Shown one piece after another: positions 756 to 22,500 of a stretch of 27,753 bases of DNA. The stretch lies in IMG/VR virus record IMGVR_UViG_3300028779_000026, positions 1-27,753 of that record, one strand, 5' to 3'. A program made the translations under genes and the position numbers. Numbering within the stretch: the stretch's first letter is position 1; every line of letters starts with the position of its first letter. Below the pieces are notes generated by a model, which searched no databases, was not told the DNA's origin, and saw only the letters and a list, made by a program, of their open reading frames with translations. Source of the stretch: a virus.

Positions 756-3018
756 AACGTTTAGCTCTCCATCCGCCACGCGCTTTGATCGTCCAATCCG
801 ACGCCCACGCTGGCATTGTTGACATTATCCGCTCGACTTCCTCGACGCTCCCGAAGCACTCCGGAACCTCTACAACGATTTCATCATGTACGTGCATCAC
901 AACCGGATAGCCAGCAGCTTCGAGCGCGACTATAGCGTACGCAAGAATGTCGCGTGCGACTGCTTGCACGACGTTCTCCGTAAGTTTTCCGCCATACGTT
1001 GACATACGTATCCAGCCGACTTTTCCTTGCTTCGGGTTAGAATTCCATCCTTCGAAAGTTATCTCTAGTGTGTTCTCTCGATATGCGCGAGTGCTCGGCG
1101 CAAGTCGTGGGCGGTGGTATGTAATCTTACGGCCAGATGGCAACGTGCAATACATCACGTCGTTAATCACAACGTAACTGATCGAACGGTAAGTGAACGG
1201 TTCACCCGGTTTCATGATCGCCTGAATACCCGCACCTTCGAGTCCGTAATATTGTTTCATGTGGCCGTAGCGTCCGCGCGTTTGACCTCCCCAGAACTCA
1301 ACGATTGCTGGCGATGCGGTACGCCACGCAAGAATGGCCGCTTTGATTTGTTCTTCTGTGAGAAACTCATTAGCTTTAAAATTAATCCATGCGCCTATCC
1401 AACCGCCGTATCCCGAGCTAAGAACTGCAGTCTTACCAAGCTTTCGATCTTCGTGATGTTTACCAGTTTCTTTTTTGTGTCTGATGAATTCTTCGAACGG
1501 CACCCCTGTTATGCGTGAAGCAGTCATTTCGTAAATCATTCCGTGCGAATTGAAAACATCTATTTGCCATTGCTCGCCCGCTAGTATCGCAAGTACGATC
1601 GGTTCGATCGATGCGTAGTCGGAGCATATGAAGTCGCAACCATCCGCCGGGATAAACATTCCGCGCAAACAGCTTGAAACCGTCTTGATTGGATTTGAAA
1701 AAAACATTTCGACGAGATCAGCAGATCGTGTGCGTATGCATTCTACCGCATCCTCTGTCGCTTTCGGATTCCATTCATGTGTAGTGTGTGCCCGATTACT
1801 TCCACACCATGCGCACCCCACACGATTAACAAAATAGCGTTTGCAACTTAAGCACTCTAAAACATCAAGGCCACTATTCGGCAAGTTTTGTGGTTGTACA
1901 CCTTGGCCTGCAGCACGACCGGTACGTGCGGAATGATACGCGAACAGATCATGCACGCGGTCGTTCCAATCCATTGTGTTTAACATTGCATAGATTTTTT
2001 TAACGGCGGCCGATCCAAGCAATTGCCTGATCTCTAGTACGCGTTTAATTTTAGGCAATAGCGGTTGTTTTAGTATCTCTTCGATATCTTCCATGTCGAG
2101 CGTTTCAGTATGCACTCCCATCGATAACAACCATTTCCTGATCGCTTGTACTTCCGTTGCGAACCCTACATGCCCGCGCGTTAATAGACGCAACTCTGCG
2201 TTATATTTCAGCGCCGTTTGCTCGATCACATCGCGCGCCGCCTCGATCGTTTGTCGATCCAATCGAACACCACGGCGATTGATAGCTTGATCACATAACC
2301 AGAACTCTAATTCAAACGGTGAGAGATCGGGACACAAGCGCGATATCTCCGCCTCTGCGCGTATATCCTGAATGTTGTACGCAATGAATTTGCCGCCGTC
2401 TTCGGGTTCGTCAGCCATCAATACGCGCGTTCGCGCGTTATGCTTCGTTGGATTGTGCGGTACGCTAAATTTCATTATGAGGCGCCGACCATCAGCATGT
2501 TTTTTGTGACTAATATCAAGCACAGTGCCAGCACCGTCTAAACTGGCCGGCAGTGCATGCGCTCGGGATTTAGCTTGCGCGCATCGTAATTGTCGCACAG
2601 GCAGTTGTGGCCAACCATAGCGGCGTGTGCAAACGTACGTCCAAATCCAGTATTCAAACTGCATGTTCCACGCCTGCAGTAGTCGACCGCGTTGCAAATG
2701 TTCGAACAGATCGAGTGGGGGTGGTTGACCCGGCAACCACAAATGCTCTCCGGTACCATCTTTGAGATCGTATGCAGCAGATAACACTTCAGTACTCGGA
2801 TGCATCGCGTACACTGCAGCACCGATTGTCGGTAGTCCCTTATCTTTAGCGCCCGGTGGAGGATCAAATTTACTTGTTATCGGATTCCATATAAACCCTG
2901 CCTCCGAAAATGTTTCGAAATCTAATCCAGCAATGATCGTCGATGCGCAAGTACCCGTTTGTAATATAGTGCCATAGGGTAACGTTTCAAACGATGGGGG
3001 CGGTGGTGGCAGTGTCAT
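745..3018 (-). CDS. Family A DNA polymerase with 3'-5' exonuclease domain
   Basis: 757 aa, likely the replicative polymerase of the phage. The N-terminal domain has DnaQ-type exonuclease signatures: D-F-E at 33-35, N-M-Q-F-E-Y near 118-123 and Y-N-I-Q-D near 214-218. The C-terminal half carries the Pol I motifs: T-G-R...Q-P-Q-N-L-P near 366-380, motif A S-D-Y-A-S-I-E near 466-472, motif B R-K-L-G-K...Y-G near 525-538 and motif C H-D-E at 711-713. Four cysteines (389, 392, 402, 405) form a CxxC...CxxC insertion just before the palm, unusual for bacterial Pol I. The ATG has GGAGAAG eight bases upstream and overlaps the end of the XRE gene by 32 bp. The starting MTLPPPPPS segment is proline-rich. 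Function is confident by motif; the role of the zinc insertion is unknown. Confidence 0.96.
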   Translation of the reverse strand: MTLPPPPPSFETLPYGTILQTGTCASTIIAGLDFETFSEAGFIWNPITSKFDPPPGAKDKGLPTIGAAVYAMHPSTEVLSAAYDLKDGTGEHLWLPGQPPPLDLFEHLQRGRLLQAWNMQFEYWIWTYVCTRRYGWPQLPVRQLRCAQAKSRAHALPASLDGAGTVLDISHKKHADGRRLIMKFSVPHNPTKHNARTRVLMADEPEDGGKFIAYNIQDIRAEAEISRLCPDLSPFELEFWLCDQAINRRGVRLDRQTIEAARDVIEQTALKYNAELRLLTRGHVGFATEVQAIRKWLLSMGVHTETLDMEDIEEILKQPLLPKIKRVLEIRQLLGSAAVKKIYAMLNTMDWNDRVHDLFAYHSARTGRAAGQGVQPQNLPNSGLDVLECLSCKRYFVNRVGCAWCGSNRAHTTHEWNPKATEDAVECIRTRSADLVEMFFSNPIKTVSSCLRGMFIPADGCDFICSDYASIEPIVLAILAGEQWQIDVFNSHGMIYEMTASRITGVPFEEFIRHKKETGKHHEDRKLGKTAVLSSGYGGWIGAWINFKANEFLTEEQIKAAILAWRTASPAIVEFWGGQTRGRYGHMKQYYGLEGAGIQAIMKPGEPFTYRSISYVVINDVMYCTLPSGRKITYHRPRLAPSTRAYRENTLEITFEGWNSNPKQGKVGWIRMSTYGGKLTENVVQAVARDILAYAIVALEAAGYPVVMHVHDEIVVEVPECFGSVEEVERIMSTMPAWASDWTIKARGGWRAKRYAK

Positions 3019-3214
3019 TAATGATCTTCTCCATCAGTTTCGGTTCTTTCATCAAACATCGTAGAAATGTTTGAACAGTGCCACTCGGAGGTTTTTTCCC
3101 GGACTCCCAGCTAACCCATGACGTTCGACAAATCTTATATTTTTCGCAAAACGCTTTTGTCGACATACCATGTCTTTGTCTAAATAATTTCAGTTCATCG
3201 CTAGCTATTATCAT
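2987..3214 (-). CDS. XRE-family helix-turn-helix regulator
   Basis: 75 aa. Residues about 5-55 fit a lambda-repressor-like HTH: L-K-L-F-R-Q-R-H-G-M-S-T-K-A-F-C-E-K-Y as helices 1-2, then a recognition helix around C-R-T-S-W-V-S-W-E-S-G, with the typical W-E-x-G ending and a following K-K-P-P. It begins with an ATGA overlap on the gene before it and overlaps the polymerase start by 32 bp, so it is made with the polymerase. It is a candidate binder of the palindromic TGACG-N4-CGTCA sites of this genome, but that pairing is inference; a TetR-like protein at 12113-12421 is the other candidate. Confidence 0.85.
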   Translation of the reverse strand: MIIASDELKLFRQRHGMSTKAFCEKYKICRTSWVSWESGKKPPSGTVQTFLRCLMKEPKLMEKIINDTATTAPIV

Positions 3215-3399
3215 GCAATGCGTCCGTATTTCGTTATGTATAATTTATTTTTATATTCGTACGCTATTATTTCATACGGGAAAGATACTTGATAGTGACG
3301 TTTCCCAACTAGACATAAGTATAATTTTTTGTGCCACGAGTAAACCATCTCATAATTTGATTTAGCTAAAAACTCAAAACGTTCATGTTCATTTATCAT
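3211..3399 (-). CDS. Hypothetical small protein
   Basis: 62 aa from an ATG (MINEHERFEF) overlapping the TGA of the DUF551 gene before it. Aromatic- and basic-rich (YSWHKKLYLCLVGKRHYQ, YEYKNKLYITKYG), predicted mostly beta strand, no membrane segment or cysteine motif. The reading frame extends further upstream through an Arg-rich stretch that lies over the neighbouring gene and is unlikely to be coding. No family recognised; it is translationally coupled on both sides. Confidence 0.6.
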   Translation of the reverse strand: MINEHERFEFLAKSNYEMVYSWHKKLYLCLVGKRHYQVSFPYEIIAYEYKNKLYITKYGRIA

Positions 3400-3593
3400 G
3401 CGGGTAGCTCCGGTAATGGCTGCCAATGCGTAATTCCGCTCACGTCGTAATAATCGACGTCGCTCCACACATACCCGTCGGTCACTCTGGCGATAATGTA
3501 ACAATCAAGTATGTGGCCGCCATCCGCATTACATGCTAAAACGAACTCTCCGGGCTCGGGTAATCGTTCGTTGCAATCGATCCAGTTGTTCAT
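3396..3593 (-). CDS. DUF551 family protein
   Basis: 65 aa, MNNWIDCNERLPEPG at the start and G-I-T-H-W-Q-P-L-P-E-L-P at the end. This is the complete DUF551 pattern (tryptophan, L-P-x-x-G, then T-H-W-x-P-L-P), a small fold widespread in phages and prophages with unknown function. The ATG overlaps the TGA of the preceding gene; an in-frame ATG further upstream would add eight residues but lies in that gene. The protein at 414-755 shares the opening WIDCN and T-H-W motif, so two paralogues occur in this block. Confidence 0.85.
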   Translation of the reverse strand: MNNWIDCNERLPEPGEFVLACNADGGHILDCYIIARVTDGYVWSDVDYYDVSGITHWQPLPELPA

Positions 3594-3820
3594 GTCAAAG
3601 CCTCGCATTTTCTGCAAATCGTACCATCCGTTGTGAGGGATGTTTCGGCATTGTCGAGTACCTCCGTTATGTGGACAACATTCTCATGATGTGTTCTCTT
3701 ATTCCATGGGTTTATTGTGAAATAATCAGAGATAACACGTTTTAGTTTTTTATTACAGACACGGCAAAACGTCTTAACCGATCGTGTAAATGTTGTTTTC
3801 GGGTAATGAACGGTTTTCAT
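3590..3820 (-). CDS. Small protein with two CxxC pairs (zinc-ribbon-like)
   Basis: 76 aa. C-R-V-C-N-K-K at about 19-25 and C-R-K-C-E near the C-terminus form a probable zinc-binding pair, with a charged linker between them. The first residues are basic. It overlaps both neighbours by ATGA and therefore belongs to the same transcript. The arrangement suggests a nucleic-acid or protein-binding ribbon; no specific family recognised. Confidence 0.7.
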   Translation of the reverse strand: MKTVHYPKTTFTRSVKTFCRVCNKKLKRVISDYFTINPWNKRTHHENVVHITEVLDNAETSLTTDGTICRKCEALT

Positions 3821-4023
3821 CTAATCGTTTCCATAAATGTTTCGAGGATATGACGCGGTACGCATAGCGATCGTGTTTCCGCAACGGTGCCCGAATCCTT
3901 TTCCGATAACTCCGTAGCGAGAATGATAATGTTTTCGTTTCCGTAATATTTTAACTCGATTGAGGTTTCGATAGCCTCACTGTCCACGGTAATAATTGAT
4001 AAAGCATACTTAACGATTTTCAT
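3817..4023 (-). CDS. Hypothetical small protein
   Basis: 68 aa, MKIVKYALSI start, no cysteine pair or membrane segment. Alternating hydrophobic residues (SIELKYYGNENIIILATEL) suggest a small beta fold followed by a C-terminal helix. Overlaps both neighbours (ATGA at each end), including the phosphatase-like gene before it. No recognised family. Confidence 0.65.
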   Translation of the reverse strand: MKIVKYALSIITVDSEAIETSIELKYYGNENIIILATELSEKDSGTVAETRSLCVPRHILETFMETIR

Positions 4024-4451
4024 TTCGTTTCACTCCTTGGCATAGCTAGGCACAGCACACCGTTGCTATTAAACATTTCGATAACGGCCGGTGAATCGTC
4101 GATAGCGAAATCAACCGGATAATGTCGTTTTATCGCGTCTAGCATTTCTTTTTTAACCACGTAATCCGGCCTGAAGTCACCCACACGGCGCATGTACAGG
4201 TCGTGGCAGGGAATGTTATTCGCCTCTAGCCACGCGAGCGTCATGTCACGATGTGATTCAGGTCGGCCGGTTGCCATGATAATTCGCGTTGAACGGGACA
4301 AATCCATCGCTAGGGACGCGATCGGTTTAATCCGCATGTCCTTATCCATCGCGTTGTAGAATGTGTTGTAACGCTTCTGTTCGCCTTGAATGTAATGCAA
4401 GCGATGTGTGCAATCTGCTAGTGTTCCGTCAATGTCGAATATCACTGCCAT
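4020..4451 (-). CDS. HAD-superfamily polynucleotide 3'-phosphatase-like protein
   Basis: 143 aa. HAD motif I is F-D-I-D-G-T-L-A-D at residues 5-13, motif II is M-A-T-G-R-P-E near 59-65, K at the V-V-K-K-E-M-L segment is the motif III lysine, and motif IV is I-D-D-S-P near 117-121. The R-x-x-T-x-x-W-L spacing after motif II and the L-Y-M-R-R-x-x-D-x-R-x-D-x-x-x-K signature are typical of the phosphatase half of T4 polynucleotide kinase and its stand-alone phage relatives, which remove 3' phosphates from nucleic acid. No kinase half is present. AGGAAG lies nine bases before the ATG. Substrate (DNA nick, RNA or nucleotide) cannot be told. Confidence 0.88.
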   Translation of the reverse strand: MAVIFDIDGTLADCTHRLHYIQGEQKRYNTFYNAMDKDMRIKPIASLAMDLSRSTRIIMATGRPESHRDMTLAWLEANNIPCHDLYMRRVGDFRPDYVVKKEMLDAIKRHYPVDFAIDDSPAVIEMFNSNGVLCLAMPRSETK

Positions 4452-4470
4452 GTGTGTTGCTTCCTGTGTT

Positions 4471-4488
4471 ACGCCCCTTGCGGGGCGT
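4471..4488 (-). terminator. GNRA-capped hairpin between two leftward genes
   Basis: A perfect 7-bp GC-rich stem (ACGCCCC with GGGGCGT) closes a four-base loop, which on the minus strand reads GCAA, a GNRA tetraloop. It begins six bases after the stop of the ssDNA-binding-like gene and lies upstream of the phosphatase-like gene's ribosome site. No U-run follows, so it may be an attenuator or mRNA-stabilising structure rather than a full terminator. Confidence 0.55.
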
Positions 4489-4493
4489 CGTTA

Positions 4494-5396
4494 TTAATTA
4501 ACCATGTAACCCATGCGAATGAGATCATCATCCGACCAACCCATCCCCTTATACGCTTCGTACGAATGCCCCTGCGCAGCGGGCGTCATCATGCGCAACG
4601 GTGATACGGGCACGGGTGGTGCAATAGGAGCCGGTGGTGGTGCGATTGGTGCAGGCGCGGGTGTCATAATGCCGGGATATGGAGGGGGTTGCGTTGCGGC
4701 CGGCGCCGGTATGCCTTGCACTACGGGGGGTGTTACGCTCGGTGCTGGTGTGGCAGACATACCCGATGGGGGTGTTGGCATACATCCAGCCGGTAATGCC
4801 TCCTGCCCGAACCCGACGCTTTTAGCATCGATCCCGAGGATGATTCTTTCGCCGTAACCTTGAAACGCTACGATCATACCGTTCAAATAAACGCCCGGCT
4901 GCTGTGTCGAATCGTTACCGTCTACCGTTGCAGCGACTTGTACGAAATCGCCAAGGTTAACGAAATCCTCTTGCGCGATGTATTCCTCACCGCGTGCTGT
5001 ACAAACTTTCGGTGCCATGGACGAACTGAAACGCAGCACCCAGCATCCCGCGAAGCCTTGGCAGTCACACGGGCGAGTACCTTCGGAATTCGGTTCGGTC
5101 GAATCGCCGTCGGCTATTTTCCACGCGAATTTAGTCGAGGTGGGTGTCGCGATATTCGGGAAAGCACTGTGACCAACATTGTATATCACACTGCCCCACT
5201 CTGTTTGCGACCAGTGCAGACCATGCTGTTTCGGGATAGCGACGGCGAAATAAAACTGCATGCGTGGTTGTCCGGCCATCTTTCCGGTTTTGTAGACCAG
5301 CACGTTACCTTCGCGATCTTTCGTATTACCGCGATATAACGAACCCTGAACTAAACGGCCAACGGGCGTACGTATTTGTGTAATCTTGTTTGACAT
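4494..5396 (-). CDS. Probable phage ssDNA-binding protein with Pro-rich tail
   Basis: 300 aa. The first ~190 residues look like a phage OB-fold ssDNA-binding protein of the DUF2815/Enc34 type: an early T-P-V-G-R-L-V-Q-G strand, a Q-P-R-M-Q-F-Y-F-A-V-A strand, and the late G-D-F-V-Q-V-A-A-T-V-D-G...G-V-Y-L-N-G-M-I-V-A-F-Q-G-Y-G-E run. A ~90-residue Pro/Ala-rich linker with A-P-I-A-P-P repeats follows, then a conserved-looking tail G-M-G-W-S-D-D-D-L-I-R-M-G-Y. The short acidic end on a flexible linker is how SSBs contact replication partners. It has its own promoter at 5424-5452 and a GGAG Shine-Dalgarno. The family call is from sequence pattern only. Confidence 0.75.
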   Translation of the reverse strand: MSNKITQIRTPVGRLVQGSLYRGNTKDREGNVLVYKTGKMAGQPRMQFYFAVAIPKQHGLHWSQTEWGSVIYNVGHSAFPNIATPTSTKFAWKIADGDSTEPNSEGTRPCDCQGFAGCWVLRFSSSMAPKVCTARGEEYIAQEDFVNLGDFVQVAATVDGNDSTQQPGVYLNGMIVAFQGYGERIILGIDAKSVGFGQEALPAGCMPTPPSGMSATPAPSVTPPVVQGIPAPAATQPPPYPGIMTPAPAPIAPPPAPIAPPVPVSPLRMMTPAAQGHSYEAYKGMGWSDDDLIRMGYMVN

Positions 5397-5423: not shown

Positions 5424-5452
5424 ATGTTACGTGCTATTGACGGGGGCGTCAA
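5424..5452 (-). promoter_or_regulatory. Leftward promoter with palindromic operator
   Basis: On the minus strand TTGACG (5452-5447), 17-bp spacer, TAACAT (5429-5424), reading into the ssDNA-binding-like gene. The -35 box is one half of a perfect 16-bp palindrome TTGACG-GGGG-CGTCAA at 5437-5452, so a dimeric protein bound there would block RNA polymerase. The same half-sites recur at the other promoters of this window. Confidence 0.75.
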
Positions 5453-7088: not shown

Positions 7089-7286
7089 TTATTCGCAAAG
7101 CGATTTAAAAAACACCGGCTTTGTTCTTTTTTCAAATTTCACGGTATTATATTTTATGTAATCTTCTAGATTTATAAACTCATAACCAGAATCGGCGTAA
7201 CCTTCACATTGCACAAAGTCATGTTGCAGTTGTTTTAACTTCTCTACGGTGATGTTGTACTTTTTTGCTAATTCGCTGTAAGTCAT
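7089..7286 (-). CDS. Small protein with possible HTH
   Basis: 65 aa. The first ~25 residues, M-T-Y-S-E-L-A-K-K-Y-N-I-T-V-E-K-L-K-Q-L, match the opening of a helix-turn-helix (L-A-K-K-Y-x-I-x-x-x-x-L), but the rest is short and acidic/aromatic. A GGGGGA ribosome site precedes the ATG. It is the first gene after the duplicated 59-bp promoter element, so it should be among the earliest transcribed. Confidence 0.65.
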   Translation of the reverse strand: MTYSELAKKYNITVEKLKQLQHDFVQCEGYADSGYEFINLEDYIKYNTVKFEKRTKPVFFKSLCE

Positions 7287-7306
7287 GTTTTATCCCCCAT
7301 TGCGGG

Positions 7307-7365
7307 CAGCACATTGCCGACCTGATAGAGCGATCTTACTCCTTAGTGACGGGTACGTCAATAGC
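7307..7365. repeat. 59-bp promoter repeat, copy 1
   Basis: Identical base for base to 16696-16754. It contains a complete leftward promoter, the palindromic operator and about 26 bases of the transcribed leader. Similarity between the copies continues more weakly through the ribosome site (GGGGGATAAAAC versus GGGAGATAGAACG) to the start codon. Confidence 0.95.
7333..7361 (-). promoter_or_regulatory. Leftward promoter, copy 1
   Basis: TTGACG (7361-7356), 17-bp spacer, TAAGAT (7338-7333) on the minus strand. A TGACG-GGTA-CGTCA palindrome at 7347-7360 overlaps the -35 box. It reads into the genes from 7286 leftward. Confidence 0.8.
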
Positions 7366-11916: not shown

Positions 11917-12113
11917 CAGCACACATTAAACAGGATACAGATACAACGTGGTGCGGTGCGTCCCTCGACCCGGGGTTCCACTTCGCGAATGTTGAAGCCG
12001 CTGTGTATAACGGAGCACACGATAAAAATCCTAGAGCATGCGCGTTATGCACGCGTGAGCTAATCACACACTTGATTAACGGGCGCGAACTCGCCCCGGA
12101 GCACATAGAATAA
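11913..12113 (+). CDS. Small protein with W-C-G and CxxC motif
   Basis: 66 aa, starting with an ATGA overlap on the nuclease gene. T-W-C-G near residue 12-15 and C-A-L-C-T-R-E-L at ~43-50 could form a small zinc site. Similar 'W-C-G...C-x-x-C' proteins are found in phage early regions without known function. Confidence 0.65.
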   Translation: MTAHIKQDTDTTWCGASLDPGFHFANVEAAVYNGAHDKNPRACALCTRELITHLINGRELAPEHIE

Positions 12114-12421
12114 TGAAAGAAAGAGAGCGTAAAGACCCGCAAGAACGAAAAGAACAAATACTACAAGCGGGTATTAAACTGGCGATCCGACACGGGTATC
12201 ACGCAGTCACACGCGAAGACGTTGCACGCGAGGTGTCGGTGTCCGTCGGACTTGTATCAAAGTATTTTTTTACCATGGCGCAGTTTAAGCGCGTCATTCT
12301 AAGTGCGGCAATCGACAGAGGTATTGTAGAAATCATTGCACAAGGTATTAGCTTGCACGACCCATTAACCAGTAAACTAACGCCTGCACTTCGTAACAAA
12401 ATAAAAGCGCTTTTCGACTAG
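12113..12421 (+). CDS. TetR-type HTH protein
   Basis: 102 aa. Residues ~12-60 match the TetR N-terminal DNA-binding domain: I-L-Q-A-G-I-K-L-A-I-R-H-G-Y-H-A-V-T-R-E-D-V-A and V-S-V-G-L-V-S-K-Y-F (recognition helix ending in the usual K-Y-F). The ligand-binding domain of full TetR proteins (~200 aa) is absent; short phage TetR-like proteins of this kind exist. Its start shares a base with the previous stop. It could be the regulator of the palindromic operators, as TetR proteins bind inverted repeats with short spacers, but that is inference. Confidence 0.82.
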   Translation: MKERERKDPQERKEQILQAGIKLAIRHGYHAVTREDVAREVSVSVGLVSKYFFTMAQFKRVILSAAIDRGIVEIIAQGISLHDPLTSKLTPALRNKIKALFD

Positions 12422-12451: not shown

Positions 12452-14776
12452 ATGGAATTCATGCCGGCGGCCTTTCACGCTTTAAATTTGTATAAACAGT
12501 TTGTCGTATACCACATCAGACCTAGCACATCGCGACCCGGTAAGTCTGATAAAATCCCAGTAAACCTCAATACAGGGCTACCAGCCAACGCACACGACCC
12601 CGCCATATGGTTAAGCGGCGACGAGGCAATGGCCGCAGCCAACCGCATGGGTGCGCGTCATGGTGTAGGGTTCGTTTTTACAGATAACGATCCGTTTTGG
12701 TTTCTTGATATCGATTCTTGTGTGGTTAACGGCAAGTGGTCACCGCTAGCAGTCGAACTCCTGACGCGCTTAGTGGGGTGCGCAGTCGAGGTTTCGCAAT
12801 CGGGACAAGGATTACATATTATCGGATCGGGGATATTACCTGAGCATTGTTGCAAGCCTGCCGAGTTAAATATAGAACTCTATAACTCTGGTCGTTTCGT
12901 AGCTTTAACCGGCAACAATGCTGTGGGTAACGCGGCGTTTACGTCTGATGCGATCTGGGAGATAGCAAACCAATATTTTCCGCCCCGTTCGAATAGTAAC
13001 GGCAATGGCGATATATTACAACGTTTCGCAACACTTGTTACGCGTGGCGTCGATTCACGATGGGTTGGCTCTGTGGATGACTCGGATCTGATCCGTCGTG
13101 CTTGTTTGCCACATCGTAATACATTTAGTAGCAAAGCGACGTTTCGTGATTTATGGCAGCGTAACGTGCACATACTAGCCGGAGCTTACCCGGCACCGGA
13201 TAAACTGGACGGATACGATGACTCGAAAGCTGATGCGGCGCTTGCCCAGCATCTAGCGTTTTGGACGGGATGTGATGCGGAGCGCATGCGTACGCTCATG
13301 CTCGCATCAGGGCTCTATCGTGACAAATACGATCGTGGCGATTATCTGCCGCGAACGATTGTTAACGCGATAGAGATCAACACGACCGTCTGTATTGATC
13401 CCCCGCCAGTTGCGCCCGTCATGGTCGCGAGCATTGACACATCGTCTGCATTTCTCAACGCAGAGCAACAAGCCGCATATTTCGCCGGTTGTGTGTATGT
13501 GATCGAGCAAGATAAAATGCTTGTGCCGCGCGGACGATTGCTAAAACCAACAGTTTTTAAATCGGCGTATGGCGGTAAAATATTTACGATTGATGCTGCA
13601 AACTCACGTACAACTAAAAACGCGTTCGATGCTTTTATCGATTCTCAACTTGTGGTACATCCGCAAGTCGACGACACCTGTTTTCGTCCTGATTTACCGA
13701 CAGGTGCGATTATTAATCAGAACGGGTTTACTTACGTAAATACGTACTGGCCGATGGAAATACCCTGTGTTGAGGGTGACGTAACACTTTTTCTGGAACA
13801 CCTCATTAAGCTGTGTCCAGTGAAACGAGACGCAGATATCTTGCTGTCCTACATGGCAGCCGTCGTACAATACCAAGGCGTGAAATTCCAGTGGTGTCCA
13901 TTTATTCAAGGCGTTGAGGGAAACGGTAAAACACTATTAACGAAGTGCGTGCAATACGCTGTCGGATCAGCCTACACACATTTTCCCAAAGCTGCAGAAC
14001 TTGCCAGCCGGTTTAACGATTTTATGTACGAGCGCGTTTTTATTGCAGTAGAAGATATTTACGTAGCCGATGGGCTAAACGAAATATACGAAGCATTGAA
14101 GCCGATGATTACCGGAGAATGGCAAGAGATCGAACCAAAAGGCGGTAAAAAAGTTACACGGCAAGTATGTGCGAATTTCATCATTAATAGTAATCACAAA
14201 GACGGCCTTCGTAAGACGAGAAATAACCGAACCTTCGCACCTTTTTACACTGCACAGCAATCACTTGAAGACCTCAAGCGCGATGGGATGTCAGGTGGCT
14301 ATTTCGAACGATTGTATGGGTGGTTGAATGATGGTGGATTCGCTAACGTTAATCATTTTCTCCGGAACTATCACATACTCGATGAATATAACCCGGCTGG
14401 CTCTTGCAGACGAGTACCAACAACTTCGTGTACTGAGAGCGCAATCACTCAATCCGCAGGTCGTATCGAACAAGAAGTCATCGAGGCAATTGCATCTGGT
14501 CGTCCGGGATTCCGCAACGGCTGGGTGTCCACCACAGCATTAAATAATTTACTTGACGAGATACGCGCAACCGCTCGGATTGCACGCAACAAACGTGGTG
14601 AGCTACTTCGCAGTTTAGGGTACGAACTCCACAGAGGATTGCTTGAAGGCCGTACGACGTCTAACGTCATACCCGACGGTAATCGCCCGTGCCTGTACGT
14701 GCGATCAGATCATCTTACTCTACTATGGGATGATGGGCAGAGGATAACGAAGCAGTACGAGAAGGATCAAGTGTGA
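12452..14776 (+). CDS. Primase-polymerase / SF3 helicase fusion
   Basis: 774 aa; AAGGGA precedes the ATG. N-terminal prim-pol fold: G-V-G-F-V-F (71-76), F-L-D-I-D (84-88, metal-binding aspartates), S-G-Q-G-L-H-I (117-123, catalytic His) and R-F-V-A-L-T-G (148-154). A helical bundle follows around 255-310 (D-A-A-L-A-Q-H-L-A-F-W-T-G and Y-R-D-K-Y-D-R-G), as in NrS-1-type primase-polymerases. The C-terminal SF3 helicase has Walker A G-V-E-G-N-G-K-T (487-494), Walker B V-F-I-A-V-E-D (529-535), sensor N-F-I-I-N-S-N (575-581) and basic R-K-T-R-N-N-R. It would prime and unwind DNA for the family A polymerase. The gene stops in the first unit of a tandem repeat. Confidence 0.93.
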   Translation: MEFMPAAFHALNLYKQFVVYHIRPSTSRPGKSDKIPVNLNTGLPANAHDPAIWLSGDEAMAAANRMGARHGVGFVFTDNDPFWFLDIDSCVVNGKWSPLAVELLTRLVGCAVEVSQSGQGLHIIGSGILPEHCCKPAELNIELYNSGRFVALTGNNAVGNAAFTSDAIWEIANQYFPPRSNSNGNGDILQRFATLVTRGVDSRWVGSVDDSDLIRRACLPHRNTFSSKATFRDLWQRNVHILAGAYPAPDKLDGYDDSKADAALAQHLAFWTGCDAERMRTLMLASGLYRDKYDRGDYLPRTIVNAIEINTTVCIDPPPVAPVMVASIDTSSAFLNAEQQAAYFAGCVYVIEQDKMLVPRGRLLKPTVFKSAYGGKIFTIDAANSRTTKNAFDAFIDSQLVVHPQVDDTCFRPDLPTGAIINQNGFTYVNTYWPMEIPCVEGDVTLFLEHLIKLCPVKRDADILLSYMAAVVQYQGVKFQWCPFIQGVEGNGKTLLTKCVQYAVGSAYTHFPKAAELASRFNDFMYERVFIAVEDIYVADGLNEIYEALKPMITGEWQEIEPKGGKKVTRQVCANFIINSNHKDGLRKTRNNRTFAPFYTAQQSLEDLKRDGMSGGYFERLYGWLNDGGFANVNHFLRNYHILDEYNPAGSCRRVPTTSCTESAITQSAGRIEQEVIEAIASGRPGFRNGWVSTTALNNLLDEIRATARIARNKRGELLRSLGYELHRGLLEGRTTSNVIPDGNRPCLYVRSDHLTLLWDDGQRITKQYEKDQV

Positions 14777-14892
14777 CGGGGCTTACGGATAGTGTGACGG
14801 GGCTTACGGATAGTGTGACGGGGCTTACGGATAGTGTGACGGGGCTTACGGATAGTGTGACGGGGCTTACGGATAGTGTGACGGGGCTTACG
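14771..14892. repeat. 21-bp tandem repeat between convergent genes
   Basis: Five identical 21-bp units starting at 14771, 14792, 14813, 14834 and 14855, followed by a 17-bp partial copy at 14876 that runs into the terminator hairpin. The first unit contains the stop codon of the primase-helicase. Each copy carries ACGGGGC, so the single GCCCCGT at 14892 can pair with any of six partners. There are no spacers, so it is not a CRISPR array. Confidence 0.95.
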
Positions 14893-14903
14893 CCCCGTCT
14901 TTT
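14880..14903 (+). terminator. Terminator after the replication block
   Basis: An 8-bp perfect stem (GACGGGGC with GCCCCGTC) closes a TTAC loop and is followed by TTTT. It ends the rightward transcript. On the minus strand the same hairpin has a GTAA (GNRA) loop and contains the stop of the convergent gene at 14888, so it may act both ways, although no U-run follows on that strand. Confidence 0.8.
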
Positions 14904-16555: not shown

Positions 16556-16674
16556 CACACACCCCACTCGTTATATTCGTTCGCTTCGTCTTCGTAGCGT
16601 TGGCAGATATCACAAACATATTCCTCTTTTACTTTCGTTTCACCGCACTGACACAATGTTTCATTCTCGTTCAT
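16555..16674 (-). CDS. Tiny zinc-ribbon protein, first after promoter copy 2
   Basis: 39 aa, MNENETLCQCGETKVKEEYV then C-D-I-C: C-x-C...C-x-x-C, a minimal zinc ribbon, followed by an acidic tail. GGGAGAT ribosome site. It is the first gene after the second 59-bp promoter element, so it should be strongly and early expressed. Confidence 0.65.
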   Translation of the reverse strand: MNENETLCQCGETKVKEEYVCDICQRYEDEANEYNEWGV

Positions 16675-16695
16675 CGTTCTATCTCCCGTTACGGT

Positions 16696-16754
16696 CAGCA
16701 CATTGCCGACCTGATAGAGCGATCTTACTCCTTAGTGACGGGTACGTCAATAGC
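16696..16754. repeat. 59-bp promoter repeat, copy 2
   Basis: Perfect duplicate of 7307-7365. It lies directly downstream of the terminator at 16761-16788, so it restarts transcription of the leftward genes after the previous transcript ends. Confidence 0.95.
16722..16750 (-). promoter_or_regulatory. Leftward promoter, copy 2
   Basis: TTGACG (16750-16745), 17-bp spacer, TAAGAT (16727-16722) on the minus strand, with the TGACG-GGTA-CGTCA palindrome at 16736-16749. It drives the tiny genes from 16674 leftward. Confidence 0.8.
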
Positions 16755-17738: not shown

Positions 17739-18065
17739 TCAATTCGGCCAGTCCGGATCAACCATTTTACCGTCTCGCAAAGTATGCCGCAGCGCGATTA
17801 TCTTATTCGCATGCTCTGGGGGAATTAGCATCCTGAGGCGCCCGGTTTCCATACTATCCGGATTACCTGATCCCATCGTACGGGTAATCGGCGTATACCC
17901 ATTAGCAACGAGCCATAGGTTTGCCGCACGATCCAGAAGGGATATGTATTCATTCGCACGCGCCACGGGTATATACACGGTGGGCTGTCTACAAACCTTT
18001 TCAAGTTTTTTCTTGTGGTAATCACAATAAACGACCCTTCTGATTTCTGAGTAGCATCCACACAT
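17739..18065 (-). CDS. Hypothetical protein
   Basis: 108 aa, MCGCYSEIRRVVYCDYHKKK start: three N-terminal cysteines and a histidine could hold a zinc ion. The rest, V-Y-I-P-V-A-R-A-N-E-Y-I-S-L-L-D-R-A-A-N-L-W-L-V-A-N-G, is helical. The start shares one base with the preceding stop. It ends where the hairpin cluster begins, so the structured RNA may be its 3' region. No family recognised. Confidence 0.7.
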   Translation of the reverse strand: MCGCYSEIRRVVYCDYHKKKLEKVCRQPTVYIPVARANEYISLLDRAANLWLVANGYTPITRTMGSGNPDSMETGRLRMLIPPEHANKIIALRHTLRDGKMVDPDWPN

Positions 18066-18424
18066 TATCGCCTACTCCTGTTTCTTAGTGCCGCGCCGTC
18101 CCCATGGTGATAGCCGGGTGGTAGCCCCCTAGTGTGGGCTGGCTCCATCAGCATGCGTGCATCCTTCAGTGCCTCAACATGGGCGAGCAATCCGGGCTCG
18201 TCATCAGGATGAACCCACACATTGATTAAACGGTAGCCTCTCGTTTTATATATTCGCGACTGTGAAAACCCATTTCGGTAACTGCGGGCTGTACACCTAA
18301 TGCACTCCATACAGCTACCGTTGCGAACGTATCGCTCCGCTACGTGGCCGTTTTTGCACGCTCGACCAGTAAAATATGTGTTCCGACCATCCTCGAAGGC
18401 CTCGGAACGCGTCGTAATCCTCAT
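18065..18424 (-). CDS. Zinc-binding phage protein (endonuclease VII-like motif)
   Basis: 119 aa from MRITTRSEAFEDG, with GAGGAC five bases before the ATG. The sequence Y-F-T-G-R-A-C-K-N-G-H followed by R-N-G-S-C-M-E-C is the G-x-x-C-x-x-G-H...C-x-x-C treble-clef pattern found at the front of many phage endonuclease VII/HNH-like and other zinc proteins. No clear catalytic H-N-H follows, so nuclease activity is doubtful. An ATG at 18505 would extend the gene, but it has no ribosome site and lies in a repeated TCCGTCAT element. This is the first gene of the leftward transcript. Confidence 0.75.
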   Translation of the reverse strand: MRITTRSEAFEDGRNTYFTGRACKNGHVAERYVRNGSCMECIRCTARSYRNGFSQSRIYKTRGYRLINVWVHPDDEPGLLAHVEALKDARMLMEPAHTRGLPPGYHHGDGAALRNRSRR

Positions 18425-18494
18425 TTTTGTGTCCTCGTAAGTAAAAAAGCAGTTTATCACGGGGGTGTGAACAGTGCCATTGATATTTCGTAAA

Positions 18495-18760
18495 AGTTCC
18501 GTCATGGGTAAAATTTGTTTTTTATCATTAAGTTAGACCTATTTCTGCCGGATGACGGATGAAAACCCTTACCCACACCGATTTAGCAGGATTGTAGTAT
18601 AGGGCATGGATATAACATACCATATTATCATCCTACAGTTTCGCTGGAGATTGTTATAGTTCCGTCATTCCGTCATAAATAGTAATAATAGTAATAAAAA
18701 CAATAGTTTACCCAATGACGGAACTCTATGACGGAACTATGACCGAGTATTCATCCGTCA
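18495..18760. repeat. Array of TCCGTCAT / ATGACGGA sites (origin- or operator-like)
   Basis: The 423 bases between genes (18425-18847) hold at least six copies of an 8-11-mer: AGTTCCGTCAT at 18495; ATGACGGA at 18552; two head-to-tail TCCGTCAT at 18661 and 18669; ATGACGGAACT at 18715 and 18728, with a decayed ATGACCGAGT at 18739 and TCATCCGTCA at 18751. The pairs at 18661-18676 and 18715-18738 face each other across a 38-bp A+T-rich stretch (AATAGTAATAATAGTAATAA). Inverted iterons around an AT-rich core are typical of replication origins; repressor clusters look similar. Confidence 0.7.
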
Positions 18761-18811
18761 CCGACCCCATACCACTGTGCACTACCCCCACGAGTGTAAT
18801 ATCTGTACAGT

Positions 18812-18839
18812 TTGATTTCGAAGCAATCGGGCGCATAAT
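18812..18839 (+). promoter_or_regulatory. Candidate late rightward promoter
   Basis: TTGATT (18812-18817), 16-bp spacer, CATAAT (18834-18839), just before the small terminase gene. A start about seven bases after the -10 box would leave little room for a start at 18848, which supports 18875 as the first codon. Confidence 0.55.
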
Positions 18840-18874
18840 GGGCACTTGTGATCAACAGAAGTGAGAAACACCGC

Positions 18875-19309
18875 GTGAGTGGAAAACCAATACCAACGCC
18901 CCGTAAAACGGGCGGCACTGAGAACATGTGGATAGCAACCCAAGATATGCTATTTCAGATCGCTGAATTCGCAGGGCTCGGACTATCGCAAGAACAAATC
19001 CATAATTACTATGGGATATCATCTTCCACATGGTTCGCTGCGCTTATGCGCCAGCCCGAGCTCGTGGTTGCCGTTTGTACGGGTAAATCTAGCGCGATCG
19101 CAAAGGTCTCTGGTAAGCTATGGAAATTGATCGAAGAAGGCGACCGGAAGGCGATCTGCTTTTATCTAGACAGGCAAGCGGGATGGCTGAAAACCAGCAA
19201 TGTTGTGGAAAACAAACCCACCTCGGCGCCGATCCCGTTTATTGCAGAATCGACTAACGACCCAATCGAAGCGGCGAAAATGTATCAGAAAATCATGACA
19301 GGGAAATAA
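18875..19309 (+). CDS. terS: Terminase small subunit-like protein
   Basis: About 144 aa from GTG 18875 (VSGKPIPTPRKTGG; a GTG at 18848 would add nine residues). Residues ~30-60, L-F-Q-I-A-E-F-A-G-L-G-L-S-Q-E-Q-I-H-N-Y-Y-G-I-S, form a DNA-binding HTH, and K-S-S-A-I-A-K-V-S-G-K-L-W-K-L-I-E-E-G-D-R-K-A-I-C-F-Y-L-D-R-Q-A-G-W is the G-D-x-x-A-x-x-F-Y-L-x-x-x-A-G-W signature of many phage small terminases, which bind the packaging site and recruit TerL. It opens the late block, though the large subunit lies 4.5 kb away behind the fibre gene. Confidence 0.8.
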   Translation: MSGKPIPTPRKTGGTENMWIATQDMLFQIAEFAGLGLSQEQIHNYYGISSSTWFAALMRQPELVVAVCTGKSSAIAKVSGKLWKLIEEGDRKAICFYLDRQAGWLKTSNVVENKPTSAPIPFIAESTNDPIEAAKMYQKIMTGK

Positions 19310-19501: not shown

Positions 19502-22500
19502 CCCCAGCACAATTTCTAGAATACTGCGCCATATTCGGTGTCACAACAGGTGGCGGGGGTGGTTCGGGCTATCTGCCTCTCACAGGCGGTACGTTGACGG
19601 GTACCCTTACGCTCGCATCGGGCGCTAATCTTGATGTGTCGGACATAACGCGCATTCCACAAGCATGGTATTATGACCTTGTAAACGTTAGTTTCGGCAT
19701 TACGCATACTACTACAAACGCATTCTACGTGATGAACACTGCAGCTACGACTTGTAGCGATTCGCTCGGCGTAGCGACCTATAGCCCCGGCGTGGTGTTC
19801 GGTATAAATAACATATCTGCGGGTGATGTGACGTTTCTTCCTAATTCGCCCGATACGATCGACGGTAACGTTTCGCTAACGGTTCCCTCTCAAACCTCTG
19901 TTATCATCATGGCAGCCGCAACACAGTGGTCGACTATCGCGCAGGCGAATTTCGGAGGTGGTGGGGGCGGCGTAACATCGATACAGGTTCAGCAAGGCGC
20001 ATTTAATTTCGGCACTGATTCGGGTACTGGTTCGGCGTATGTTGTAGCATGCTCGCCAGCGATCACCGGTTCGTACGCCGACGCAATGATCGTCTCTTTC
20101 GTACCACTCAATAATAACGCCACGAATACCCCTACACTCAACGCAGGCGCCGGGGCACATACGATCACCTATAATGGCAATACGCTTGTCACGGGCGATA
20201 TTGGCGCCACGTACAGCGTTTCCTGCCAATGGTCGGCATCGCGTGGCACATGGCAGCTACTGAACCCCCGTAGCTCAATCATTCTTGCGTACGACATACA
20301 GCGTAACGTGTATACGTCTGGCACAGACACCGGCGCAGCGAATTCATATGACGTTAATCCGTCAAACGCCGTTGCGTTCTATACAGACAACATGGTGATC
20401 CAGTTTATCCCGGCACATAGCAATACCTCCGCCAGCACACTAAATATCTCAGGGGTAGCCGCTGCAGCGATCGTCAAGCAGGGACAGGCCGCGCTCGTCG
20501 CTGGCGATCTCGTCGCTGGTACGCCTGCCGTCGTGATTTACTCAACGGTAAACAGCAATTGGCTCCTACTTAACCCCCAGTCGGCCTCGTCCGCTAGCGC
20601 ATCGCAAGTACAGGCGAATGCATTTAACAATGGCGTTGACGCCGGGACTGCAAACACGTACTCGACCACATTATCCCCCGCCGTCGTTACGCTAACGAAC
20701 GGTTTACCTGTTTCATTGCTGGCGGTAGCAAACAGCAACACCGGCGCAAGTACGCTCGATGTGAATGGCACACCCGTTTCGATCCATAACCTGCAGGGTG
20801 CGGCGTTGTCCGGTGGCGAAATGCTCGCTGGTTACAATTACAACTTTGTGTATGACACCGCCAATTCGTGGTTCGTCCTGCAGAATTCGTCACTTGCCAG
20901 CGGTGGTGGTGGAGTAACCAGCGCGCAAGTCCAATCAAGTGCGTTTAATAGCGCGACAGACGCCGGCGTAACTGCGAATGCATATGTGGGTGTTTATTCC
21001 CCTGTGGTCGCAAGTCTCACAGGCGGGATATTCATTCTTAATAATATCGCTCATGCGAATACCGCCTCTAGTACGTTGGATGTCGGCACCGGTGCCATCG
21101 CCATCGTCAATAACATGCTTAGCCCGTTAGTGGGCGGTGAGCTCTTAGCGGGGGTGTCGTACGCATTCTTGTATGATCCTATCGCTACGGATTTTATCAT
21201 CCTGAATTCGTCGTTATTAGGGGCTGCAACATCTGGCCTACAAGTCCAACAATCTGCTTTTAATCTTGGATTAGATTCGGGTATCGCGGACGCGTACGTT
21301 GTAGATTTAACCCCCACGGTCACTAGTCTCACAAATGGGCTCCCCCTGCAGTTTACGCCCCTTAATACAAACGCGACCGCGAATCCCACGGTGCAAGTTA
21401 ACGCCGTTTCGCCAACCGCGATTCTTTTAGCCAACGGTCAACCCGTAGCACCCGGCGATCTCAACACAGCATCGCTCGCATCGATGGTATATGCGGCAGG
21501 GCTCGGCGGGTTCATATTGCTAAACCCGTACGTATCGTTTGTGTCTGGGTATGACGTACAGCAGCAGAAATTTACTTACGCGATCGACAGCAGCGGTTCA
21601 GCGAATGCGATCGTTTTAGCGTTAGCTCCCCCGATCGTATCCAATGGTGTGGTTAACGTTACATTCCAATGTGCGAATACTAATACCGGTGCAACCACGA
21701 TCGATGTAGGATTTGGCGCAATCCCACTTGTAACCAACACGGGTGCGCTTGTAGGTGGCGAATTACTGACAGGTGGTACTTACAGTGCTTGTTATAATGC
21801 TGCGGTTAATAGCTACGTATTGTTTAATTCGTCTTTAAGCGGTGGCGGGGGTGGTGTTACTGCCGCACAGATACAGGGTAATGCCTTTACGTCGGCGGTA
21901 GATACCGGCGTTACTAACGCGTATGTGGTTAGTCTTACCCCGCCGTTAGGTTCCTATAGTAATTTTGCATCATTCTGGTTCACCACGCCGAATACCAGTT
22001 CTGGAAATTGTACGATAAATGTTAATAGTCTCGGGGTAACCGACTTACTTGACACGTTAGGTCATCAATTACCACCCGGTGCTATCGTAGCGGGCGTTCC
22101 ATATCAGGTGATCGTCTACGCAGGCGTTTGTACGGTCGTTAACCCTTCCCCAGTTGCGATCGCCTTCGGCGCGTATAGCAATTCGACCACTACGCTGGCC
22201 GCTTCGAGTTTTACAAAAGTACAGTTTCAGATTAAAGAATTCGACATGGGGGATAACTACGACAACGTAACAAACTATCGTTTTGTCGCACCGCTCAATG
22301 GGATTTACCATTTCGATTCTTTGGTCACCGTGAATGACGCGAACGTTGTGACAACGTCGATGTATAATGTAAGCCTCTACATTAATGGCTCAGAGTATAA
22401 GCAAGGCAATCAAGGTACGATATATAATGGCGCATCTAGCACAAGTAACATATCGGTAGACGTCCAATTATCCGGTGGCGACTATGTGGAAATCTATTGT

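Follow-up and report, generated by a model that had tools for sequence, protein, structure and literature searches.

A mirrored array of short iterons around IHF-like cores as a probable replication origin in a phage lineage

Results

The array and its gene surroundings

The window analysed here is a stretch of 27,753 nucleotides of viral DNA, which by overlap with two near-identical contigs closes to a circular genome of 45,569 bp. To the right of a leftward phrog_1081 gene, and ahead of a small terminase-like gene (terS), lies a non-coding stretch of about 260 bases that carries an array of short repeats (Table 1). The octamer TCCGTCAT, with its reverse form ATGACGGA, occurs in six exact copies on both strands within 18498-18735, joined by two copies matching at 7/8 positions and one at 6/8, and outside the array it is found exactly just once in the 45.6-kb genome, at 23401 within a tail-fibre-like gene. 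This six-copy cluster had been pointed out in the initial annotation and is borne out, with an anatomy larger than the one described there: the segments 18495-18559 and 18661-18725, each of 65 bp, repeat one another in inverted orientation with 78% identity, which gives two modules in mirror layout. In each module a tandem pair of sites, 8 bp apart, faces one site across 38-39 bp with 77-82% A+T, the left tandem partner being degenerate in module A. The facing pairs across 38 bp that had been annotated are also there, with 18661/18669 set against 18715/18728 on either side of 18677-18714 (82% A+T). A near-identical strain shows a single difference in 601 bp, inside a core.

The array is the densest both-strand 8-mer cluster of the genome. 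None of 20 dinucleotide shuffles of the genome gave a cluster with at least two copies per strand within 260 bp, and the best-window score of the array was 6.5 against a shuffle maximum of 3.0. Rfam and ARAGORN gave no match. The longer start of the open reading frame at 18065-18505 is probably false, as the initial annotation had said, because the match to PHROG starts with the first residue encoded from 18424; the ATG of the longer form is supplied by the iteron at 18498-18505.

The replication genes lie to the left of the array and comprise a DEAD helicase, a VRR-type nuclease, a short TetR_N protein and an AEP-SF3 primase-helicase, the last of them 3.7 kb upstream of the array and not immediately next to it. 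Rightward, the terS-like gene is followed by a gene for a tail-fibre-like protein, by terL and by the gene for a Phage_portal_3 portal, in this order. The genome, which has its own portal, terminase and PolA, is self-sufficient and no satellite island. A host lookup found one relative among 84,980 genomes, a MAG contig, and this single match suggests a lytic life style.

Table 1. Features of the array and of the genes discussed, with positions in the window
Feature	Position	Strand	Remarks
AEP-SF3 primase-helicase gene	12452..14776	+	Proposed initiator; NrS-1 HBD, DUF5906, phrog_1829
C-terminal winged helix of primase-helicase	14522..14704	+	AF2 pLDDT mostly 85-95
Wing motif of primase-helicase	14648-14662		GRTTS
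phrog_1081 gene	18065..18424	-	Left neighbour of array; also adjoins the arrays of L138, L142, L151
Iteron, outer left site, module A	18498..18505	+	TCCGTCAT
Core A	18506..18544		77% A+T
IHF-like site (putative), core A	18523..18535	+	AATCATTAAGTTA; 1 mismatch to WATCAANNNNTTR
Degenerate iteron	18545..18552	-	6/8; tandem partner of the 18552 site
Iteron, inner left site, module A	18552..18559	-	Exact TCCGTCAT
Central spacer	18560..18660		101 bp between modules; homologous spacers in relatives 70-105 bp
Iteron, first of tandem pair, module B	18661..18668	+	Exact
Iteron, second of tandem pair, module B	18669..18676	+	Exact
Core B	18677..18714		38 bp, 82% A+T
IHF-like site (putative), core B	18698..18710	+	AAACAATAGTTTA; 1 mismatch; 4 nt from facing iteron, as in relatives
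Iteron facing the tandem pair across core B	18715..18722	-	Exact
Iteron, outer right	18728..18735	-	Exact
Iteron	18739..18746	-	7/8; TCGGTCAT
Iteron	18754..18761	+	7/8; TCCGTCAC
Small terminase-like gene (terS)	18848..19309	+	phrog_309; starts 87 bp downstream of last site

Conservation of the geometry in relatives

Scans with terL and primase alignments yielded about 150 distinct primase loci (L numbers). Plain 8-mer counting across them gave many GC-rich false top hits upstream, and a geometry detector was adopted. The layout that recurs 3' of the primase-helicase gene is a plus-strand site, a minus-strand pair about 46 bp on with 8-bp spacing, a centre, a plus-strand pair again 8 bp apart, and a minus-strand site about 46 bp further; pairs are spaced 7-9 bp, cores 43-48 bp start to start and centres 78-112 bp. 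Six loci showed at least five of the six elements and 15 scored at least 3.75; each of these arrays lies 3' of the primase. The 83 shuffled loci reached at most 3.5. About 32 of the roughly 150 primase loci gave a detectable array, and many of the others had no 3' sequence. The same layout recurs in some 20-30 related viruses whose sites differ in sequence.

In these relatives short sites in both orientations lie downstream of the primase, usually just before terS; the array follows the primase directly only in some (L016, L157, L165, L152). The iterons read ACGGGGTA in L166 and L171, ACGGGGAA in L174, AGGTGTAT in L157/L047, GTTGTAAA in L165, GTCGTCAT in L016, CTCGTCAT in L142, TCCGGTTA in L151 and L147, CCGTGCAT in L152, TAGTGGTA in L270, ATTAAAGGTA in L236 and, nearly as in the window, TCCGGTCAT in L246/L250. 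In GC-rich phages the cores are only moderately A+T-rich. The proposal that the architecture follows the primase C-terminus, based on L015 having no array, was withdrawn: the primase C-terminus of L015 is unrelated, yet a degenerate array of the same geometry is present (3.75 against a null of 3.1).

Among named phages, Klebsiella Jedunavirus JD001, Acinetobacter LAPP1 and Scuro and Pectobacterium PEAT2 share the gene order of the window (helicase, TetR-like gene and primase, then the leftward gene, array and terS). Their GGGGTA arrays have the tandem pair, core and facing sites as here, but differ in the iterons (CGGGGTAT) and in the wing of the primase-helicase (GRVNN). No origin is annotated in the fetched records of these four phages, and a search of the open-licence literature turned up no account of arrays of this kind for the group. 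In JD001 itself (L187), the product of 2121-4817 (H391_gp48) is annotated as terminase large subunit; it occupies the helicase position of the relatives and another terL follows terS, which indicates that H391_gp48 is probably mis-annotated.

IHF-like elements in the cores

Alignment of the cores revealed a second element that stays constant while the iterons change and that matches the IHF consensus WATCAANNNNTTR known from the literature. This consensus is exact in 14 of 46 cores, where 0.09 would be expected, and occurs with at most one mismatch in 24 of 46 (2.0 expected; maximum 6 in 200 shuffles). Exact matches come from 12 relatives, and the two sites of the window (18523, 18698) have one mismatch each. 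The element mostly lies 2-8 nt from the facing iteron. A core of about 38 bp would fit one IHF footprint. From these sequence matches, the A+T-rich cores are probably bent by host IHF.

Co-variation of the iterons with the primase-helicase wing

AF2 predicts a winged helix at the C-terminus of the primase-helicase and places a variable motif in its wing; a Foldseek search of this C-terminal domain gave no significant structural neighbour. In the first set of phages, GTA was part of the iteron in 14 of 17 with a G[RQ]xxN wing and in 0 of 9 with other wings (Fisher, 7e-5), a pattern noticed post hoc, with iteron consensus calls made by hand. Newly fetched loci gave 10/14 against 1/2, and all loci together, the post hoc set included, 24/31 against 1/11 (p=1.2e-4). 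L208, with a GRVHS wing and GTA, is an exception, and independent evidence for non-NN wings is thin. A near contrast is offered by L166/L171, with ACGGGGTA and GRVNN, and L174, with ACGGGGAA and GRTAG. On the primase tree the wing label changes 9 times, compared with 10.0 in shuffles; since the label is scattered like a shuffled one, shared descent alone does not produce the match.

Two further comparisons concern TerS as the possible reader. In L246/L250 TerS and TerL belong to other families, the wing reads GRVTR and the iteron is nearly that of the window, which favours the primase-helicase over TerS. Across 20 array-bearing phages the primase-helicase is homologous in 190 of 190 pairs, and TerS in 82 of 190. 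Judged by this post hoc sequence comparison, the iteron appears to track the wing of the initiator's C-terminal winged helix.

Discussion

We consider that the array at 18498-18761 is probably the replication origin of the phage, read by the AEP-SF3 primase-helicase and built on two IHF-architected cores. The positions and symmetry of the sites, their conserved geometry, the enrichment of the IHF consensus and the co-variation with the wing are observed; from them we infer binding by the protein and by IHF, melting and origin activity. In the proposed mechanism, the C-terminal winged helix would bind the 8-9 bp iterons, and each A+T-rich core would be bent, probably by host IHF, bringing the tandem pair and the facing site together. 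The origins of PICIs consist of two iteron sets around an A+T-rich region (PMC6092414), and SaPI Rep sits with its C-terminal domain on iterons downstream of its own gene, apparently as two hexamers (PMC7581432). By analogy with both, each half-array would load one SF3 hexamer, aided by the IHF-bent core. The mirrored modules may then load two helicase rings in opposite directions, so that forks leave both ways and replication starts bidirectionally with the phage primase and PolA. The initial annotation had named the region a candidate replication origin or master operator; the comparative anatomy, the wing co-variation and the IHF-like cores support the former and not the latter. The GC-skew profile that it had asked for, run on the assembled 45.6-kb genome, speaks neither for nor against an origin, because the skew is weak and goes with the direction of the genes; its detrended minimum falls at 21482, some 3 kb away from the array.

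The main rival is a packaging site, cosB- or pac-like, at which TerS would bind the repeats and TerL cut nearby, while IHF would bend the cores and thereby bring facing sites onto a TerS oligomer, as in lambda cosB (R3-I1-R2-R1). Indeed, the gene that follows the array is terS in the window and in most relatives, an IHF-like site lies between the sites as in lambda cosB, where the major grooves then face each other (PMC4856287), the sites of the phrog_309 TerS group (window, L142, L016, L015) all contain GTCA, and TerS could co-vary with the iterons too. We nevertheless regard this reading as unlikely, since the array does not travel with a homologous TerS: at least three TerS families have arrays, phrog_309 in the window, phrog_51 in L166 and others, and phrog_606 in L246/L250, where the same geometry and near-identical iterons accompany unrelated terminases (phrog_606/phrog_38). 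Downstream of the array L175 and L210 have a minor tail gene instead of terS, L138 has no phrog_51 or phrog_2 match, and among the TerL relatives, those in whose loci this primase is not seen (L017, L019-L021, L028, L032) have no such array. Moreover, the array is dyad-symmetric, unlike the one-sided TerS assemblage of lambda, and the iteron base seems to follow the primase wing rather than TerS. No independent contig ends at the array, and the contigs join into a circle. One array might also serve both purposes, as origin through the primase-helicase wing and as packaging site through TerS, the same IHF-architected nucleoprotein fold being used for both initiations. Such a dual role would account for an array that keeps its place beside terS while changing in sequence with the initiator; we consider it improbable.

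A comparably small chance is given to a regulatory role, in which the TetR_N-like (12113-12421) or XRE-like (2987-3214) regulator would bind the array as an operator or enhancer and switch the two divergent promoters, leftward and late rightward. The array does sit between divergent transcripts, a weak sigma-70 match is present at 18812-18839, and TGACG is common to the array and to promoter palindromes, for which the initial annotation had suggested that one protein might bind both. This suggestion is not sustained: a 16-bp palindrome (TTGAC-N6-GTCAA / TGACG-N4-CGTCA) recurs in L166, L171, L174 and L157, with 3-5 copies each where 0.02-0.05 are expected, and stays constant in these phages although their iterons (ACGGGGTA, ACGGGGAA, AGGTGTAT) differ. 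Palindromes and iterons diverge independently and are therefore probably read by different proteins, and the TGACG shared in the window phage looks coincidental. A TetR-type operator would be a palindrome over a promoter, conserved with the other operators, and the array is not of this kind; its asymmetric 8-mers, spaced at 8-9 bp and with IHF-like cores of 46 bp, do not resemble operators of the TetR or XRE type, and in L157, L165, L152 and L016 it follows a rightward primase gene rather than a divergent one. As for a chance or mutational repeat expansion with no function, parts of the array are simple A+T repeats (18678-18697), but the clustering, the geometry and the IHF-like element conserved across diverged phages leave this explanation hardly credible, and the cross-phage geometry refutes it in practice.

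Returning to the origin, its closest counterparts are the Pri-Rep origins of PICIs and SaPIs (SaPIbov1, SaPI5, EcCICFT073), in which iteron sets likewise flank an A+T-rich region downstream of the gene for a primase/SF3-type initiator, the C-terminal domain reads the iterons and the iterons differ between elements (PMC6092414, PMC7581432). Unlike them, our array occurs in lytic phages with their own PolA, has two mirrored cores rather than one, each with an IHF-like site, and often lies 1-7 kb from the initiator gene, next to terS. We file it as a variant of iteron origins for SF3 initiators rather than as a PICI origin, because in the window it is neither immediately 3' of a rep/pri-rep gene nor part of a satellite island dependent on a helper phage. 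At the protein level, the alpha protein of P4 (with ori and crr) also unites primase, SF3 helicase and a winged-helix iteron binder (PMC4234260); its primase is of the bacterial (Toprim) type and ours AEP-like, and the likeness is drawn for the protein. ORF904 of pRN1 and Bordetella phage BIP-1 have the AEP primase, SF3 helicase and C-terminal winged helix found here, and in pRN1 an element 3' of the gene is needed for replication (PMC4234260). This element is a 100-nt stem-loop, proposed for BIP-1 too, so that iterons would be an alternative for the protein class. Lambda cosB resembles the array in that it lies close to terS and has protein sites flanking an IHF bend (PMC4856287). Its sites are longer, however, and its assemblage is one-sided, whereas the iterons here are short, are arranged in dyad symmetry and co-vary with the primase-helicase.

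If the origin reading is right, a large lineage of lytic phages, the Klebsiella Jedunavirus group among them, gains an origin that can be searched for by one simple rule (a pair, an IHF core and a facing site, in mirrored form). The PICI/P4 style of origin would then extend to self-sufficient phages, with an architecture that shares its logic with lambda cosB. Iteron recognition by AEP-SF3 initiators, a protein class for which a stem-loop had been proposed earlier (PMC4234260), would then be directly testable, and natural variants such as L166/L171 and L174 point to the wing residues by which particular iteron bases may be set.

Other repeats and genes of the region

The palindromes of the window (TGAC-N6-GTCA, mostly TGACGN4CGTCA) are found at 5438, 7347, 9759, 16736 and 17720, several at leftward promoters, and overlap promoter-like hexamers. 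To judge from these motifs they are probably operators, a system separate from the iterons, perhaps of the TetR_N protein, and the 16-bp form may serve a conserved phage regulon as its operator. A promoter/operator segment of 84 bp is present twice, at 7283-7365 and 16671-16754, the copies being 93% identical and 9.4 kb apart.

Six perfect copies of a 21-bp unit, AGTGTGACGGGGCTTACGGAT, occupy 14770-14892, beginning at the primase stop codon. As a candidate origin this tandem array was rejected; its last unit forms a strong terminator hairpin (14880-14899). The copy number may be higher, because the near-identical contig G001 ends inside the array and G003 begins just beyond. Nor are tandem arrays a general feature 3' of the primase: they are present near it in 18 of 84 loci, compared with 23 of 84 elsewhere. 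Long tandem arrays 0.3-2 kb 3' of the primase were seen in L108, L111, L118, L119, L127, L129 and L153, with units that include 15 bp x 31, 24 bp x 12 and 18 bp x 33; some may be coding.

Loci in which neither this primase nor an array is seen share the TerL lineage of the window, a pattern that points to exchange between replication and packaging modules. Directly upstream of terS, a ParB-like/DNA methyltransferase gene is found in L016 (2301-3524), L142 (13936-14553) and L012 (1-1221), and wherever the array is visible it sits between the array and terS.
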